Translations under genes and position numbers: made by a program
NCBI GenBank assembly: GCA_001940825.1
Contig: MSGT01000046.1
Coordinates: 62,001-126,000, forward strand
Reading direction: 5' to 3'
DNA from: Sphaerochaeta sp. Phil3
GTDB lineage: Bacteria > Spirochaetota > Spirochaetia > Sphaerochaetales > Sphaerochaetaceae
Length of the DNA stretch: 64,000 bases
The notes under the pieces: generated by a model
Told to the model about the DNA's origin: nothing
What the model saw: only the letters and a program-made list of their open reading frames with translations
Databases searched by the model: none
Shown: positions 25,852 to 33,900 of the stretch, one piece after another
Layout: the number at the start of each line of letters is the position of its first letter
How positions within the stretch are numbered: the first letter of the stretch is position 1

Positions 25852-26991
25852 ATAACACGTCTCCAAAGCATACTTTCATCTGGAATAAATGCTTTTTCGG
25901 CTTTAGATATCTACAAAATAACACGTCTCCAAAGCCTTACAATCTGCATTCACGCTTTTTATTTCGCTTTAGATATCTACAAAATAACACGTCTCCAAAG
26001 CTGGAAGAGCTTGCAATTTTTAACGAACCGTGCTTTAGATATCTACAAAATAACACGTCTCCAAAGCAGGGAAGATGATTCCAAGAGTCTGGGCATCGCT
26101 TTAGATATCTACAAAATAACACGTCTCCAAAGCCGTATCGACTGCCTTGTTGAGGCTCTGCGTGCTTTAGATATCTACAAAATAACACGTCTCCAAAGCC
26201 AGTCGAAGGTCCAGTTCGAAATGCGTCGTGCTTTAGATATCTACAAAATAACACGTCTCCAAAGCAGAAGCTTTTCTATGATCCTATGGATGAACGCTTT
26301 AGATATCTACAAAATAACACGTCTCCAAAGCTACCTTTAATACTCAAAGGAACAGTCTCTTGCTTTAGATATCTACAAAATAACACGTCTCCAAAGCTAA
26401 ATGAGACGATACGGGACAAAGAAGGTAGCTTTAGATATCTACAAAATAACACGTCTCCAAAGCGAAGTTCAGAGTTACAACTATCTTGTTCAAGCTTTAG
26501 ATATCTACAAAATAACACGTCTCCAAAGCACTCTCCGGGTATATCAGTCCTCCGTCCTTGCTTTAGATATCTACAAAATAACACGTCTCCAAAGCCATGA
26601 ACAAATCGGAACAATATGCCTGAAAGCTTTAGATATCTACAAAATAACACGTCTCCAAAGCGTAAACAGTGACATTGACTATAGCACAGTCGCTTTAGAT
26701 ATCTACAAAATAACACGTCTCCAAAGCAAGAGGTTCCTTGCAACTTAAACCCCTTTTGCTTTAGATATCTACAAAATAACACGTCTCCAAAGCTGAACGA
26801 TTCGAGTATTCCTGGTGGCAAGCGCTTTAGATATCTACAAAATAACACGTCTCCAAAGCCTTTGCTGTCCATTTTGTCAAAGCTAGGTGGCTTTAGATAT
26901 CTACAAAATAACACGTCTCCAAAGCTGAAGAATCAAATGATTCCCAGGATTACCAGCTTTAGATATCTACAAAATAACACGTCTCCAAAGC
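25852..26991 (-). CRISPR. Type II-A CRISPR array: 17 full 36-bp repeats at 66-bp period (starts 25900+66k, k=0..16), 17 spacers all 30 bp, truncated terminal repeat 25852-25869
   Basis: Repeat on crRNA strand GCTTTGGAGACGTGTTATTTTGTAGATATCTAAAGC; orientation from tracrRNA pairing, degenerate distal repeat and cas gene order. Confidence 0.98.
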
Positions 26992-27026: not shown

Positions 27027-27704
27027 TCATTCGAATATTTCGCATAAATCATGGTCAATAAGGATCTTTTGGGATGCGTTTTCAACCGTTTGGTCATATC
27101 TTTCTATGAATAGAAGATTGTGTTTGTTTGCGTTACATTCTCTAATGAATGTTTGTATTGTTCTTTCGTTGAAATAATTGAACATCGACACAAACACAAA
27201 ATGGTCTATTCCGCACACGTCATGAAGAACATTTGTGTATTCAGAAAGCTTGTCAATTTCATCCTGATAATCCAGCTTCAAAGAAAAACCAAACATTTTT
27301 ACCAGTGCTTGGATGTCTGGTTCTGAGTGTTCGACTTCAAAAGGGAAATCCATTTCTAGATCTTGAGCAAATGATTCAAGTTGTGAGAGTACCGTTGTCA
27401 TTGCTTCATAATGTGTTTCATTTGACATGCGATTTTTCATCAATGATGTAATCTTCGTTTGAATTCTCTTGTCAGTGAAATCTACTTGAAGAGGATTTGT
27501 GATTATTGCAAATCTGTCTTTAAATGATAAAGAGTCCTTTTCATTCGAAAAAGCAAAATCTCCTTCAAGTCCTTCGATTTGCGACTTGAGTTCTGTTATG
27601 TATTTCCTGAAAGTATCAGAGTCTTCGATGACAAGAAGAGTAGTTGAACCATCATTGAATTTGATCTGATGTTCCCAATTGTGGCTGGAAATCTTTGTTC
27701 TCAT
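27027..27704 (-). CDS. csn2: CRISPR-associated protein Csn2
   Basis: 225 aa, last gene of cas9-cas1-cas2-X operon next to array; Csn2-like sequence. Confidence 0.85.
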   Translation of the reverse strand: MRTKISSHNWEHQIKFNDGSTTLLVIEDSDTFRKYITELKSQIEGLEGDFAFSNEKDSLSFKDRFAIITNPLQVDFTDKRIQTKITSLMKNRMSNETHYEAMTTVLSQLESFAQDLEMDFPFEVEHSEPDIQALVKMFGFSLKLDYQDEIDKLSEYTNVLHDVCGIDHFVFVSMFNYFNERTIQTFIRECNANKHNLLFIERYDQTVENASQKILIDHDLCEIFE

Positions 27705-28021
27705 AACACCACCAACCTATCCGTATTGTTTATGTACTCAGAAGAAGATTCACCTGTAAGGTATTCTATAGATGCATATTGCTTTTCTGTCACAACCATT
27801 AGTTGGACGATTCCTTTTTTAGGTGTGTTTTTCCTTACATTGTCATAGATTGTTTTTGCAGCCGTTGCATTGAGACATAGTTTGGAATAGATGGATTCTT
27901 GCATCATTATAAATCCGTTTTTCATTAAGAACTTCCTGAATTGGGTATATGACCGCCTTTCTTCTGCAGTTTCTACTGGTAGATCGAACATTATAAAGAC
28001 TCTCATTTCTCTAAAACTCAT
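27701..28021 (-). CDS. cas2: CRISPR-associated endoribonuclease Cas2
   Basis: 'MRVFIMFDLPVETAEERRSYTQFRKFLMKNGFIMMQESIYSKL'. Confidence 0.96.
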   Translation of the reverse strand: MSFREMRVFIMFDLPVETAEERRSYTQFRKFLMKNGFIMMQESIYSKLCLNATAAKTIYDNVRKNTPKKGIVQLMVVTEKQYASIEYLTGESSSEYINNTDRLVVL

Positions 28022-28886
28022 ATTCGTAGAATTTGATCAACGAGAGGTCGTTGTTGTCCAATGCATCCAATATGCTTTTTACATATATCCCAACTGCATT
28101 TATAACTGTTTGTTTTGCTTTTCCTATTTGCACACGTTCATTCAAGGTGTTTAGGAGAAAAAGCTTGTCTTCATGTTCCAAGTCTGTTCCTTTTGGCATT
28201 GAATAAACTATCAAATCAAATAGAGGCCTGAATGGTTCCATTAAGTCCGATGAAAGATTGAATTGATTGAAAACATTTTTGTGAAAAAGACCCAATTGTG
28301 TCAGATATCCATTTGCAACGATTTCTCGGTTTACAAGCGATAGCAGGAGACCATACCCATAGTTCAAAGCTGAGTTTGTAAAGCAGTCGTCGGAACGAGA
28401 GAATGAACTTCCAAAAAGGCTATTGAAATAGACCTTTGCAGCATGACCTTCTCTATTCGTTGAGTCTCCAGTTTCGATTTCATCAATATAGCTGTACAGC
28501 AAATCGGAGTTTTTCAAGTTCAGTTTTTCAATGGCTTGTGCCTGTTTCCTTATTTTCTCTTTGATTATTTCCGTCCAAACCAAATCCTTGACGTCTTGAG
28601 TCCATTGAATTTGGGTATTCACCCGAGCACTGCAATCAAAACTATTGTAGTAGGGGAGCAGCTGAGCTCCGGGATTCCTTTTGTGATCACAGAATATAAC
28701 AACGGTCTTGTTTTCCCATAGAGCTTCAAGAAGTGCTGCAGTGACAGCACTTCCAGTGTTTTCGATTACAAGTACGGATATCTCGTCAAGATGGACTCTT
28801 TTTACTGTGTCACTTCTTATGACGAGATATCCGTTCTTCAATTCCAGTTTTGACCTTGAGCTTACAACGACCGTTCGCCAACTCAT
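28011..28886 (-). CDS. cas1: CRISPR-associated endonuclease Cas1 (type II)
   Basis: 'RTVVVSSRSKLELKNGYLVIR', 'HLDEISVLVIENTGSAVTAALLEALWENKTVVIFCDHKRNPGAQLLPYY'. Confidence 0.97.
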   Translation of the reverse strand: MSWRTVVVSSRSKLELKNGYLVIRSDTVKRVHLDEISVLVIENTGSAVTAALLEALWENKTVVIFCDHKRNPGAQLLPYYNSFDCSARVNTQIQWTQDVKDLVWTEIIKEKIRKQAQAIEKLNLKNSDLLYSYIDEIETGDSTNREGHAAKVYFNSLFGSSFSRSDDCFTNSALNYGYGLLLSLVNREIVANGYLTQLGLFHKNVFNQFNLSSDLMEPFRPLFDLIVYSMPKGTDLEHEDKLFLLNTLNERVQIGKAKQTVINAVGIYVKSILDALDNNDLSLIKFYEYEF

Positions 28887-31800
28887 GCTTTGATTTCTTC
28901 AATCTCCTCAAATAGTCCTGTAATGCTTTGGTCAAAAATCAGAATATTTGATTTGGTTATATCAAATCCTGCTTTTTTAGTTAGTTTTCCACAGGTTTTT
29001 GAACCGCCAATGGCTGTGAAGTCCGATTGTCCATTTCCTTCCATAGCATAATAGTTTAGTATTTCTCTAATAGCTTTACATCTTTCGAGAAGGCTCAGCT
29101 TTTCAAAAAGGCTTACTCCGTTTTCCAAGACGTCGCTCTGATTACCTGGTCTTTTGTTGTAGATTGGAGACTTACTCTTTTTCTGTAGTTCGCAATACAG
29201 GTCCAATGTGTTTTCCGTTGAGATTTTATCGAACTTTGGAGTTGGCTGTAGATCCTTGTTTTTTTCACTTTTTTTGAAAAATGATTCGATGTTCTTTACG
29301 GTTTGTTGCGATTGAGCAGATAAAACCAAAGGAACATTACTGCTCAATGTAAGAGCTTTTCCTCCAGTTGATTTTCCTGTAATTGCAAACAGGTACCCAT
29401 CAATCTTGAGCTGTGTATTGATCAATAGCTTGCTTCTGACGATGGTTGGATTGATAAGTCCCAATGTTGTTGAGCAATACTCCATGAGAGCACCAGGCTT
29501 TTCTAGGTGTTTTGCATCAATCATTGAGATTGGCACGAAGGATACGAATTTTTTGTTTTTCTCCTCATGCTTTATCACTGCGAAATGACTTGTTGCTAGG
29601 CTGTTATAACCACCATATTTTGATGTCCAGTCATCGTATGCTGATTCCTTGTTTTCAAAGTCTTCGATGGCGGATTGGAGTTTTTTGTCTGAAACTTTGG
29701 ATGGCAGAGTTCCTTTATTTGCCCCTTTCTTTACAAGTTGAATATCAAACAATTTCCCTTTCTTTGTTACCAGTTGTCTTGTAAATAGAATGTCATTTCT
29801 ATTCATGGTCTTTGCAACGACTGAGAGCGTTCCGGAAGCTCCTACTTTCCATGCATTCTTAACATCGAAATCAAAAAGCTTTGTGAGGTTGCCATAACCA
29901 TGTCCGTTTGCTTGTAGGTAGAAATTGCTTGAATACTTTGTATCGTAGACATTACCTACGACAATGTTGAGGTAGGCATCCTTTGCGTGGTGAAGGTCGT
30001 TCATTGAACGGCATTTTACGAACCCATACTGATTTCTGAAGTCTGAGACGTTTCTTGCTTTTGAGTAAACTACTTTTGTCTCTTCTCCAAATAAACTTTT
30101 CAAAGTATCCGTAACTTGTTTGACAGTTTGGCTGGTTTCTACAAGTTGTCGATTGATGAATCCATTGATTTCTTCGTCGGAAAGAGGGCTGTTTCTAACA
30201 AGCCTGTCATACTTCTCTTTTGGAATGAATTTCTTTTCGTACAAGAATTTCCAGAAGCTTTGCATTTTGGCTCTTATGAAATCATCGATAGGGTAGGCAT
30301 TGCTTTTTCTATTGTTCGTTGTCTTTTTGACAAGCACTCTATTTGTCAGGGAATCATCCTTTGTTCTAGACCGTGGGAAGATGTGGTCAATATCGTATTT
30401 GCTTATGTCGTAGATGTCTTCTATGTCGATTCTTTCTCCTGTGTACATGCATTTTCCGCATTGTGAGAAGTAAAGATATAGCTTATCTTGTCTAGACACG
30501 TCGCTTTCGCTTTTTTCTTCTAGTTTAGAGATTAACTCCCTTAATTCGTTGATGTAGTTCGAGTCTGTTTTCGTAGCATCTTTCAGCGTGTCAATCAACG
30601 TTTGTTTCCTTGAAACCGTTCTTTTCTTTTCCTGTTCGCTTCGTGTGACTTCAACGAAGACTTTTTGTGGGTTGTGTCCCATTATTCTGATAAGCTCATC
30701 AACGATTCTGAGAGTCTGCCAAGTTTCCTTTTTTACGGCAGGGGATACATACATTTCGTCAACTATCGAGTAGTCGAGTTTTCCAATGGTTTTTGGTTTT
30801 GTAATTTGTTCAATGAACTCATACTTGTTGCTTAGCAGCTCCATAAGGTTGTTCTGAGTCTCCCACAACATCCTCATGACTGACATGAGTTCTCCGGTTT
30901 CTTTGTTTATCGCTTGGATCTCATACAGGAACTTATGTGAGAAACGACCCCATCCTGCATACTTGAGCTTTGAGGTTTTATCTATCTCTTCCTTTGTCAA
31001 GACTTCTCCAAATTCGCGTTCTATGCGTTTTCTTAGCATGTCACCGCCCTCTGAGAAAACAGTTGCCCATTTTATAATCCTGTCAACGTCATCGGCTTTG
31101 AGCCTATGGCTTTCAAGAAAGTCTTTGAAGTCAAAGTATGATGAAAGTGATGCTTTTAAGTCTCCATCTATACCTGTTATGTCTTCTTTCTTGATTTTTC
31201 CAGAATACCAACAATTGTCATTGATATATTTTGTCAACTTGCTGATTGAGACTTTCTTTTCCTTCTTGAAAAGTTCATTGAAGATTTCTTGTTTCCTAGG
31301 AACTGAAAGTCTGTCTCCACAAATCCTTAGATTGTTCAGCTCGTTGAGTACCATATACTTGGAGTATTCCAGAGAGTTCTTTGGTAGGACGTCTTGGTCT
31401 TTGCAATATGTGCATTTATTTGTCATACGTTCTATGAACTTCTCAGCTGAAGACTCATAGTCGATCTTTTGTTCGATGTTCCAAGGTAGAACTCTTCCAG
31501 AGGTCTTTCTTTCAACCCAAGAATTCTTTCCTTTTGTTTCCTTTCCATAAGGATTGGATCCCAATGGTCCAACATAGTAGGGGACTCTAAACTTTAGGAG
31601 TTCCTTTATCTTTTCTGTTGCGGAGAAGCCATCTGGATCCTTCTTTTCAAGGAATTCGAAATTCTTTGAACAATTTGCCAGAATTGCATCCAATTCTATT
31701 TTGTTCATCTGGTAGGGGATCGTTCCATTTCTAAACGACTTGAGCAGAGGCATGAATGAGTCGTTTTCGATTGCATCTAGGATATGTTTGACATGTTCGT

Positions 31801-32965
31801 CGTCTTTTGGGACTTTCTCCAGAAGGTTTTTGATTTTCTTGTAGAACTCGTCTGTTCCAGTTCTTTTTACTCGTTTGACTACATGGTTACCATGGATTTT
31901 GCCTGTGTAGCTTGAATATGACCCTTTTTCATCTGAATGGAAAAAACTTTCGTATTTGTCAGGTGCATAGATCTTGATTGCTTCTTTTAGGTGTTTTAGA
32001 TCCGCCTTGTTACTGTCGAACAATTCTATCTTTGCATCTGATATGTATAAATGGCCACTCATTATGGAAGCAAGAAGAGTCCAGTCATATATTCCTTTCG
32101 CTGCTTTTATAAAAGCGAATTCCTCATCTGAAAGGCGGTCTTGTAGTTCTGGAAGGTCTGATTCTTCAAAAGATGCCTTTTTGAACTCAACGTCTGGAAT
32201 CTCGTCCCCTTCTTTTTTGAACAAAGTCGTTGTCTTTACCTTGTAGCCAAGAAGTATCCTGACTACCGATGCTTTGAGCTTTGTATCTGAAATTAGGATT
32301 TCTTTTTCTAGTTTCTCTTTTTTTTCAGAATTCCTTTTGCTCATCAAGGCTTCTTGAAGCTTTCCTATTGATGTGTACTCGAAAGTAGCATCATCAAAGA
32401 GTTCTTCGAAAACATTCTGGATGTCATCTACTAGAGGCTTAATTGATTCCACGGCTTTCATGCCTTCCCCAGGAAAGAGGAAATGGCCTCTGTTTTTGAG
32501 TATGTGCTGTATTCCTAGATACAGCAGTCTTGGATCCTTTATGTCTTCTGTCATTAGAGCTTTTCTCAAATGATATGCTGTTGGATAGATCTTGAAGAAA
32601 TCCTTGTCTTTGTAGTTCTTGTCGTTGAAAAGGATGTTCAGGTCTGGAGTTGTCTTGTCTTCAAGTATGTATTTGCTGTCGTTGAGGCGTATGAAGAACG
32701 TTGGATCGACTTTGCATATTTCTTCTGCAAAAATTTCCTGCAACAAAAGGATTCTCTTTCGCCTTCTTTCGAGTCTCCTCCTTGCTGTTCTGAAACCTCT
32801 TCGTCCAGCGGCGGTGTTGGCTTTTTCGAACAAGTGTGAACCCCACATCCTTTTACCATTGAATTTCAAGATGTTGTAGTTCGTGTCAGTTACAGCAAAG
32901 CCAACGGAGGACGTCCCGCAGTCCAATCCAATGTAGTAGTCGATGCTCTTCAAATCCTTATTCAC
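28883..32965 (-). CDS. cas9: CRISPR-associated endonuclease Cas9 (type II-A); GTG start reassigned to 32965
   Basis: RuvC-I 'YYIGLDCGTSSVGFAVTD', bridge helix 'RRGFRTARRRLERRRKRI', RuvC-II 'KVFVEVTRSEQ', HNH 'YDIDHIFPRSRTKDDSLTNRVLV', RuvC-III 'HHAKDAYLNIVVGN'; RBS GGAGG 7 nt upstream of GTG. Confidence 0.97.
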   Translation of the reverse strand: MNKDLKSIDYYIGLDCGTSSVGFAVTDTNYNILKFNGKRMWGSHLFEKANTAAGRRGFRTARRRLERRRKRILLLQEIFAEEICKVDPTFFIRLNDSKYILEDKTTPDLNILFNDKNYKDKDFFKIYPTAYHLRKALMTEDIKDPRLLYLGIQHILKNRGHFLFPGEGMKAVESIKPLVDDIQNVFEELFDDATFEYTSIGKLQEALMSKRNSEKKEKLEKEILISDTKLKASVVRILLGYKVKTTTLFKKEGDEIPDVEFKKASFEESDLPELQDRLSDEEFAFIKAAKGIYDWTLLASIMSGHLYISDAKIELFDSNKADLKHLKEAIKIYAPDKYESFFHSDEKGSYSSYTGKIHGNHVVKRVKRTGTDEFYKKIKNLLEKVPKDDEHVKHILDAIENDSFMPLLKSFRNGTIPYQMNKIELDAILANCSKNFEFLEKKDPDGFSATEKIKELLKFRVPYYVGPLGSNPYGKETKGKNSWVERKTSGRVLPWNIEQKIDYESSAEKFIERMTNKCTYCKDQDVLPKNSLEYSKYMVLNELNNLRICGDRLSVPRKQEIFNELFKKEKKVSISKLTKYINDNCWYSGKIKKEDITGIDGDLKASLSSYFDFKDFLESHRLKADDVDRIIKWATVFSEGGDMLRKRIEREFGEVLTKEEIDKTSKLKYAGWGRFSHKFLYEIQAINKETGELMSVMRMLWETQNNLMELLSNKYEFIEQITKPKTIGKLDYSIVDEMYVSPAVKKETWQTLRIVDELIRIMGHNPQKVFVEVTRSEQEKKRTVSRKQTLIDTLKDATKTDSNYINELRELISKLEEKSESDVSRQDKLYLYFSQCGKCMYTGERIDIEDIYDISKYDIDHIFPRSRTKDDSLTNRVLVKKTTNNRKSNAYPIDDFIRAKMQSFWKFLYEKKFIPKEKYDRLVRNSPLSDEEINGFINRQLVETSQTVKQVTDTLKSLFGEETKVVYSKARNVSDFRNQYGFVKCRSMNDLHHAKDAYLNIVVGNVYDTKYSSNFYLQANGHGYGNLTKLFDFDVKNAWKVGASGTLSVVAKTMNRNDILFTRQLVTKKGKLFDIQLVKKGANKGTLPSKVSDKKLQSAIEDFENKESAYDDWTSKYGGYNSLATSHFAVIKHEEKNKKFVSFVPISMIDAKHLEKPGALMEYCSTTLGLINPTIVRSKLLINTQLKIDGYLFAITGKSTGGKALTLSSNVPLVLSAQSQQTVKNIESFFKKSEKNKDLQPTPKFDKISTENTLDLYCELQKKSKSPIYNKRPGNQSDVLENGVSLFEKLSLLERCKAIREILNYYAMEGNGQSDFTAIGGSKTCGKLTKKAGFDITKSNILIFDQSITGLFEEIEEIKA

Positions 32966-32994
32966 TTGACAACCTCCAGTTCTCGTAATAATGT

Positions 32995-33100
32995 TTAGAC
33001 ATAACACGTCGTGTCAAAGTAAAGACATTACGTCAAAATCGCCCGAAAGGGTCTCCCGCTGTTGGGATTTTGAAAAGCCACCTGAACAGGGTGGTTTTTT
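32995..33100 (+). ncRNA. tracrRNA, antisense to cas9, with terminator
   Basis: 33001-33020 ATAACACGTC-GTGT-CAAAGT pairs with crRNA GCUUUG-GA-GACGUGUUAU (10-bp WC upper stem, 4:2 bulge, 6-bp lower stem); terminator CCACC-TGAACAG-GGTGG-TTTTTT. The 5' end is not defined. Confidence 0.93.
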
Positions 33101-33166: not shown

Positions 33167-33187
33167 TAGTTGACAATTTGGCAACTA
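33167..33187. promoter_or_regulatory. Candidate hicAB promoter/operator
   Basis: TAGTTG...CAACTA inverted repeat overlapping TTGACA, 17 bp before TATCGT. Confidence 0.55.
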
Positions 33188-33222: not shown

Positions 33223-33414
33223 ATGCCTATTTCCGGAAAGGAAATGGTGAAGCTCCTGAAGGCTTTTGGCTTTGAAGAAGTCGGCCAGATGGGAAGCCAT
33301 TTGAAAATGAAGAATGACAAGACTGGTAGAACCGTTATTATCCCAATCCATTCAAAGGATTTGGGAAAAGGGCTTGAACATTGTATTTTGAAACAAGCTG
33401 GATTGGAGGATTGA
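33223..33414 (+). CDS. hicA: HicA-family mRNA interferase toxin
   Basis: 'MPISGKEMVKLLKAFGFEEVGQMGSHLKMKNDKTGRTVIIPIHSKDLGKGL'. Confidence 0.92.
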   Translation: MPISGKEMVKLLKAFGFEEVGQMGSHLKMKNDKTGRTVIIPIHSKDLGKGLEHCILKQAGLED

Positions 33415-33417
33415 TTT

Positions 33418-33900
33418 ATGACTTCAAACAAAAGAGTATATCCTGCGATATTCCACAAGGAAGGGAAGAACTATTGGGTTGAGTTTCCTGATATTCCAAG
33501 TTGCATGACTCAAGGGCATTCCATAGAGCAGGCGTATCTGATGGCAAAAGAAGCTTTGGCCTTGGCTCTTGATAATGAAAAATGCAAGACGCCGACTCCG
33601 TTGGAGAAGGTGATTGCATCAAGCATAGAGGACAGAATCATGTTGGTTGAAGCTGGGGATGGTAGGGATATAGTCCATTACAGAAACCCAGACATTCCAA
33701 CGAAAATCGATGAGGGACTTAGAAAAAAGGGCTATACAAAGTATCAGGCGGCTCAGGTTTTAGGGGTGAACAGAGCATATATAACCAGAATAGCCAATGG
33801 GGAAAGGGTTCCTTCAGTTGATATGGCAAAGAGAATTGGTCTGCTTCTTGGTTTCGACTGGAAACTTTTCTATAGCAACAGTAGGGAAAAAAGAGCCTAA
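33418..33900 (+). CDS. hicB: HicB-family antitoxin with C-terminal HTH
   Basis: 'YPAIFHKEGKNYWVEFPDIPSCMTQGHSIEQAYLMAKEALALAL' HicB fold plus XRE-like HTH. Confidence 0.92.
   Translation: MTSNKRVYPAIFHKEGKNYWVEFPDIPSCMTQGHSIEQAYLMAKEALALALDNEKCKTPTPLEKVIASSIEDRIMLVEAGDGRDIVHYRNPDIPTKIDEGLRKKGYTKYQAAQVLGVNRAYITRIANGERVPSVDMAKRIGLLLGFDWKLFYSNSREKRA

Follow-up and report, generated by a model that had tools for sequence, protein, structure and literature searches.

A tracrRNA gene upstream of cas9 in a type II-A CRISPR-Cas9 locus of the spirochaete Sphaerochaeta sp. Phil3

The crRNA:tracrRNA of Streptococcus pyogenes Cas9 (SpCas9) has a 2:4 bulge between its lower and upper stems, followed by a nexus, 3′ hairpins and a terminator. 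In the same type II-A system, a long tracrRNA form, tracr-L, serves as a naturally occurring single guide by which the cas promoter is repressed (PMC11417352). Faecalibaculum rodentium carries a type II-A system whose FrCas9 uses an NNTA PAM and a 71-nt tracrRNA (PMC8931148), and the type II-A system of Treponema denticola has a Cas9 of 1,395 aa and the repeat GTTTGAGAGTTGTGTAATTTAAGATGGATCTCAAAC (PMC4607530). A catalogue of Cas9 orthologues with 79 guide RNAs includes a ‘Tde’ tracrRNA group among the characterized Cas9s; in its main text, the names Sphaerochaeta, Spirochaet- and Treponema do not occur (PMC7606464).

Here we analysed a 64,000-nt stretch of DNA (the window) from the genome of Sphaerochaeta sp. 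Phil3 (72 contigs, 2.36 Mb). The window contains a complete type II-A operon, cas9-cas1-cas2-csn2-array (Table 1), the type following from csn2 (TIGR01866) and the type II cas1. The RuvC and HNH motifs that had been described as intact are present in the Cas9 sequence (GLDCGTSS, FVEVTRSE, DIDHIFPRS, NNRKSN and HHAKDAYL). The array runs in the direction of the cas genes and ends in a degenerate repeat, as expected of type II-A. Specifically, all 17 identical 36-nt repeats, with 5′ ends from 26991 to 25935 on the minus strand, begin with GCTTTG-GA-GACGTGTTAT, and the truncated terminal repeat (25852–25869) retains precisely those 18 nt with which the tracrRNA pairs. Directly downstream of the tracrRNA terminator lies a HicA toxin and HicB-like antitoxin pair (33223–33900, plus strand), which has a promoter-like TTGACA site of its own at 33170.

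Table 1. Positions of the CRISPR-Cas9 features in the window
Feature	Position	Strand	Description
CRISPR array	25852..26991	-	36-nt repeat in 17 identical copies with 17 30-nt spacers; truncated terminal repeat at the end
csn2 (type II-A marker)	27027..27704	-	TIGR01866 1.8e-42
cas2	27701..28021	-	TIGR01573 9e-20
cas1 (type II)	28011..28886	-	TIGR03639 5.9e-91
cas9	28883..32965	-	1360 aa; GTG start at 32965, GGAGG upstream; TIGR01865 3.6e-258; REC, HNH, RuvC, PI domains
Predicted tracrRNA promoter	32966..32994	+	-35 TTGACA 32966-32971; -10 TAATGT 32989-32994 (17-nt spacer) or AATAAT 32987-32992
Predicted cas operon promoter	32988..33017	-	-35 TTGACA 33017-33012 inside anti-repeat; 18-nt spacer; -10 CATTAT 32993-32988
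Anti-repeat	33001..33020	+	upper strand 33001-33010, 4-nt bulge 33011-33014, lower strand 33015-33020
Nexus hairpin GAC-AUUAC-GUC	33024..33034	+	3 bp; covariation among relatives
Hairpin 1 GCCC-GAAA-GGGU	33041..33052	+	fold; covariation
Hairpin 2 UCCC-GCUGUU-GGGA	33054..33067	+	fold; seen by eye in relatives
Intrinsic terminator CCACCU/GGGUGG then U6	33078..33100	+	sequence and fold; stem and U-run in most relatives

We conclude that positions 33001–33100 of the plus strand are, almost certainly, the tracrRNA gene of this complete spirochaete type II-A locus. The original prediction had placed a plus-strand tracrRNA next to cas9, and the intact operon, the covariation and the recovery of held-out loci by a covariance model all support it. 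The anti-repeat, ATAACACGTC-GTGT-CAAAGT, begins 36 nt from the cas9 GTG start and pairs with nucleotides 1–6 and 9–18 of the minus-strand repeat at 16 of 16 positions (15 Watson-Crick and one G·U), confirming the duplex proposed for the 18 nt at the 5′ end of the repeat. The 6-bp lower stem with its single G·U, the 10-bp Watson-Crick upper stem and the 2:4 bulge are all present as drawn; in the energy model the bulge becomes 1:3, one extra G·U pair closing it. Downstream, the nexus-like hairpin and the terminator (CCACC/GGTGG-U6 in the prediction) are found as well, and the ‘larger folded domain’ proposed between them is indeed structured, but as two separate hairpins rather than a single domain.

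The proposed single-guide RNA (sgRNA) folds at −48.1 kcal/mol (z −5.5) into five modules, namely the duplex, the nexus, two 4-bp hairpins and the terminator. It folds as drawn. Its description as directly testable is fair, while ‘complete’ is best read as a prediction; we regard it as a sound design for a predicted scaffold. Two observations, besides others given below, count against the tracrRNA reading. First, without the crRNA, the anti-repeat is predicted to pair with the nexus (33001–33033, z −3.3). Second, a search of Rfam at the gathering threshold matched a tRNA alone, and the best match of a relaxed search was the unrelated RNAI model, far below its cut-off. We also considered a conserved switch of the apo-tracrRNA, with the anti-repeat folded onto the nexus, and rejected it: similar folds occur in several relatives, but z is near zero or positive in others.

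Relatives of this Cas9 occur in 25 other genomes of the same spirochaete family. We took the repeats of these loci from their arrays and searched the whole loci for anti-repeats; in seven of them the candidate adjoining cas9 scored below an array remnant or a chance site and was picked by eye. Besides the window, 17 loci have an anti-repeat upstream of cas9, encoded on the strand opposite to it, that forms 14–16 of 16 pairs despite differing repeats, compared with a mean of 11.9 pairs for non-cognate repeat/anti-repeat combinations. The nearest relative (L032) has an anti-repeat identical to that of the window and a repeat sharing its first 17 nt; its array seems to reach the contig end and to continue on a second contig (G004:C7).

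In an alignment of 16 loci, 97.6% of the cells are paired, whereas sliding the partner lowers this value to 30–38%. Changes on both sides affect 15 of the 23 pairs in these 16 loci (66 cells, against 17.4 when shuffled and 2–4 when slid), including 10 of the 16 pairs of the anti-repeat:repeat duplex. Furthermore, all three nexus pairs change on both sides (GAC/GUC, AAC/GUU, GUC/GAC and AAU/AUU) with every cell paired, in agreement with the predicted hairpin; the nexus loop would have only 2 nt in several relatives, which counts against the tracrRNA reading and makes the exact form there uncertain. Hairpin 1 is likewise paired in every cell, two of its pairs having both-sided changes. Because the alignment slips at hairpin 2, this element was left out of the formal covariation count, and hairpin 2 and the terminator were judged by fold and eye only.

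A covariance model built from 13 of the tracrRNAs matches 18 of 139 family genomes, of which 17 are Cas9 carriers. The tracrRNAs of four genomes (G049, G121, G007 and G005) are recovered although they were absent from the model, so the check that had been suggested, comparison by covariance model, finds held-out loci upstream of cas9. All matches lie upstream of cas9 except one, a scar in genome G011 (L079 4226–4345, G011:C12) with no cas genes nearby, which consists of one repeat remnant directly fused to a tracrRNA whose first nucleotides are missing. Repeat and anti-repeat share one orientation on the plus strand; a recombination event between the two would therefore remove the entire operon, and the scar is apparently the product of such an event between an array repeat and the anti-repeat.

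We compared the spacers with possible targets. Spacer 9 (26398–26427, minus strand) matches the VP1 capsid gene of a Microviridae genome from faeces (MG945808.1, 1666–1695) except at three positions, which all fall in the PAM-distal half, and a spacer of another family locus (L037) matches another Microviridae. Together with a VP1-like gene carried by the family genome G029, these matches suggest that microviruses probably infect these spirochaetes. Four spacer patterns had no match among viral contigs, degenerate and protein searches found no further microviruses, and the arrays of relatives mostly had no matches among phages.

Spacer 1, the newest and leader-proximal one (26926–26955, minus strand), matches the host chromosome perfectly within a TerB-DnaJ (djlA-like) gene (G000:C72:46667–46696; L076 9968–9997), flanked by AACTCAGA (in a longer entry, AACTCAGAAC). 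Such an exact self-match would be lethal in an active system whose PAM the flank satisfied well, a point against the tracrRNA reading; if the system is active, the flank is presumably not a PAM. Alternatively, the self-match may reflect mixed strains in the assembly. Set beside NNTA, the flanks come from three targets only: CGGTATTG for the microvirus with three mismatches, AACTCAGA for the self-target, and TGTA, which fits NNTA, for the L037 spacer.

The predicted tracrRNA start lies near 32999–33001. Scored with E. coli-type weights, a σ70-like promoter in the tracrRNA direction is the top site of the region in 17 of 17 loci, with a start at most 4 nt from the anti-repeat. Of 23 loci, 21 have a TTGAC-type −35 box that precedes the anti-repeat by 33–40 nt; 17 of these 21 boxes are 0–2 nt from the cas9 start codon, so that the cas9 Shine-Dalgarno sequence is flanked by the −35 and −10 of the tracrRNA promoter. 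In the cas9 direction, the predicted promoter has 10 of 12 consensus matches, is the sole such site found in 600 bp of the window, and has a score equalled by 2 of 100 shuffles. To judge from the sequence, the start signals of tracrRNA and cas9 are unusually tightly packed. The tracrRNA had been described as antisense to the cas operon, which is correct for the strand but not for the transcripts: as predicted, these diverge without overlap, so ‘antisense’ is a matter of strand alone.

This arrangement raises the possibility that the region is, beyond a tracrRNA gene, a shared control element, in which promoters interlocked over about 50 bp set the ratio of Cas9 to tracrRNA. With the cas9 −35 inside the anti-repeat and the tracrRNA −35 at the cas9 start, tracrRNA and cas9 may compete for polymerase, which could act at either promoter but not at both together. 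The near-fixed distance of the tracrRNA −35 from the anti-repeat in 21 of 23 loci, its place next to the cas9 start codon in 17, the enclosed Shine-Dalgarno sequence and the overlapping cas9-direction promoter, which is also strong in L032 and L039, speak for such an interlock. However, in most of the other 14 loci the cas9-direction site does not outscore shuffled sequence, the bulge UGU that provides the cas9 −35 may be conserved for Cas9 binding alone, and the promoter scores depend on the weights noted above. On balance we consider the shared element possible but rather unlikely. A double role of the anti-repeat, pairing the crRNA as RNA and holding the cas −35 as DNA, so that producing Cas9 and producing its RNA cofactor would be mutually exclusive, appears slightly less probable still. 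We accordingly put forward the interlocked promoters as a hypothesis about a weakly conserved arrangement; a search of the available literature, which does not prove absence, found no prior report of overlapping tracrRNA and cas9 promoters, nor of a type II-A system in Sphaerochaeta. If real, the interlocked promoters would be a simple means of balancing Cas9 against its RNA, and mutual exclusion, if true, would be an inbuilt form of control that differs from repression by tracr-L. In this locus, only the promoter arrangement might come as a surprise to a specialist.

As in S. pyogenes, the system is of type II-A and its tracrRNA adjoins the cas promoter (PMC11417352), so a long form acting as a natural single guide that represses the cas promoter might also be made here. 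We consider this very improbable. When the upstream 200 nt were compared with the anti-repeat, 132 of 500 shuffles paired as well or better, and transcription from the conserved promoter is predicted to begin at the anti-repeat itself, with no room for a guide extension; both results speak against a tracr-L-type 5′ extension mimicking guide plus repeat.

The pairing itself was compared with chance by a weighted count over 10 bp, 2–6 nt and 6 bp. The site scores 37, against 28–30 for the best sites elsewhere in the window and a maximum of 35 for 25 shuffled repeats searched against the whole window; when the DNA upstream of cas9 was shuffled 3,000 times, no version reached 37 and the best scored 33. 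With an unweighted count that takes G·U as equal to Watson-Crick, 5 of 40 shuffled repeats reach 16 of 16 somewhere in the 64 kb; such a match is not rare, and the argument therefore rests on the location and on the comparison with relatives. That chance or the decay of a repeat accounts for the pairing, with no RNA gene, a reading to which this unweighted count and the decayed scar in one relative lend something, can be dismissed almost outright, as the weighted score is unmatched by local shuffles, held-out loci are recovered and the covariation refutes it.

The tracrRNA reading, carried by sequence, pairing, covariation, synteny and held-out recovery, leads to the following model, in which transcription, processing, Cas9 binding and cleavage are modelled on the family. 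The tracrRNA would be transcribed from its own promoter, with the −35 abutting the cas9 start codon, away from cas9 and up to the intrinsic terminator, while the pre-crRNA would be transcribed on the minus strand together with the cas genes. The first 20 nt of the tracrRNA would then base-pair with nucleotides 1–18 of each pre-crRNA repeat, and host RNase III would trim the duplex. Finally, Cas9 would hold the duplex through the bulge, the nexus and the 3′ hairpins, leading to guided cleavage of DNA. The tracrRNA is a well-supported, ordinary member of type II-A, and the locus is otherwise routine.

The Cas9 of the window aligns with SpCas9 at about 426 bits over aa 10–1013, and its PAM-interacting domain has no match to that of SpCas9. 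The closest solved Cas9 is PDB entry 9jwk (1372 aa, 785 bits over the whole length), probably FrCas9 of Faecalibaculum rodentium; no other PDB entry matches the PAM-interacting domain. The scaffold predicted here would be a ready guide for a spirochaete Cas9 group whose PAM-interacting domain differs from that of SpCas9, and the covariance model recovers the tracrRNA across one spirochaete family.

The locus shares with S. pyogenes the type II-A class, the 2:4 bulge, the nexus, the 3′ hairpins and the terminator. It differs in that the 10-bp upper stem has another sequence and is followed by a nexus, two hairpins and a terminator, the promoter abuts the cas9 start, and no long form is supported. 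Treponema denticola likewise has a spirochaete type II-A system with csn2, and the 5′ half of its repeat follows the same pattern. Our method, with an anti-repeat near cas9, a GAAA joining it to the repeat and covariance models, is that of the Cas9 catalogue, which builds one model per group (PMC7606464). FrCas9 is encoded with the same gene set and a tracrRNA upstream of cas9 transcribed in the opposite direction (PMC8931148); that tracrRNA has 71 nt, the one described here about 100 nt.
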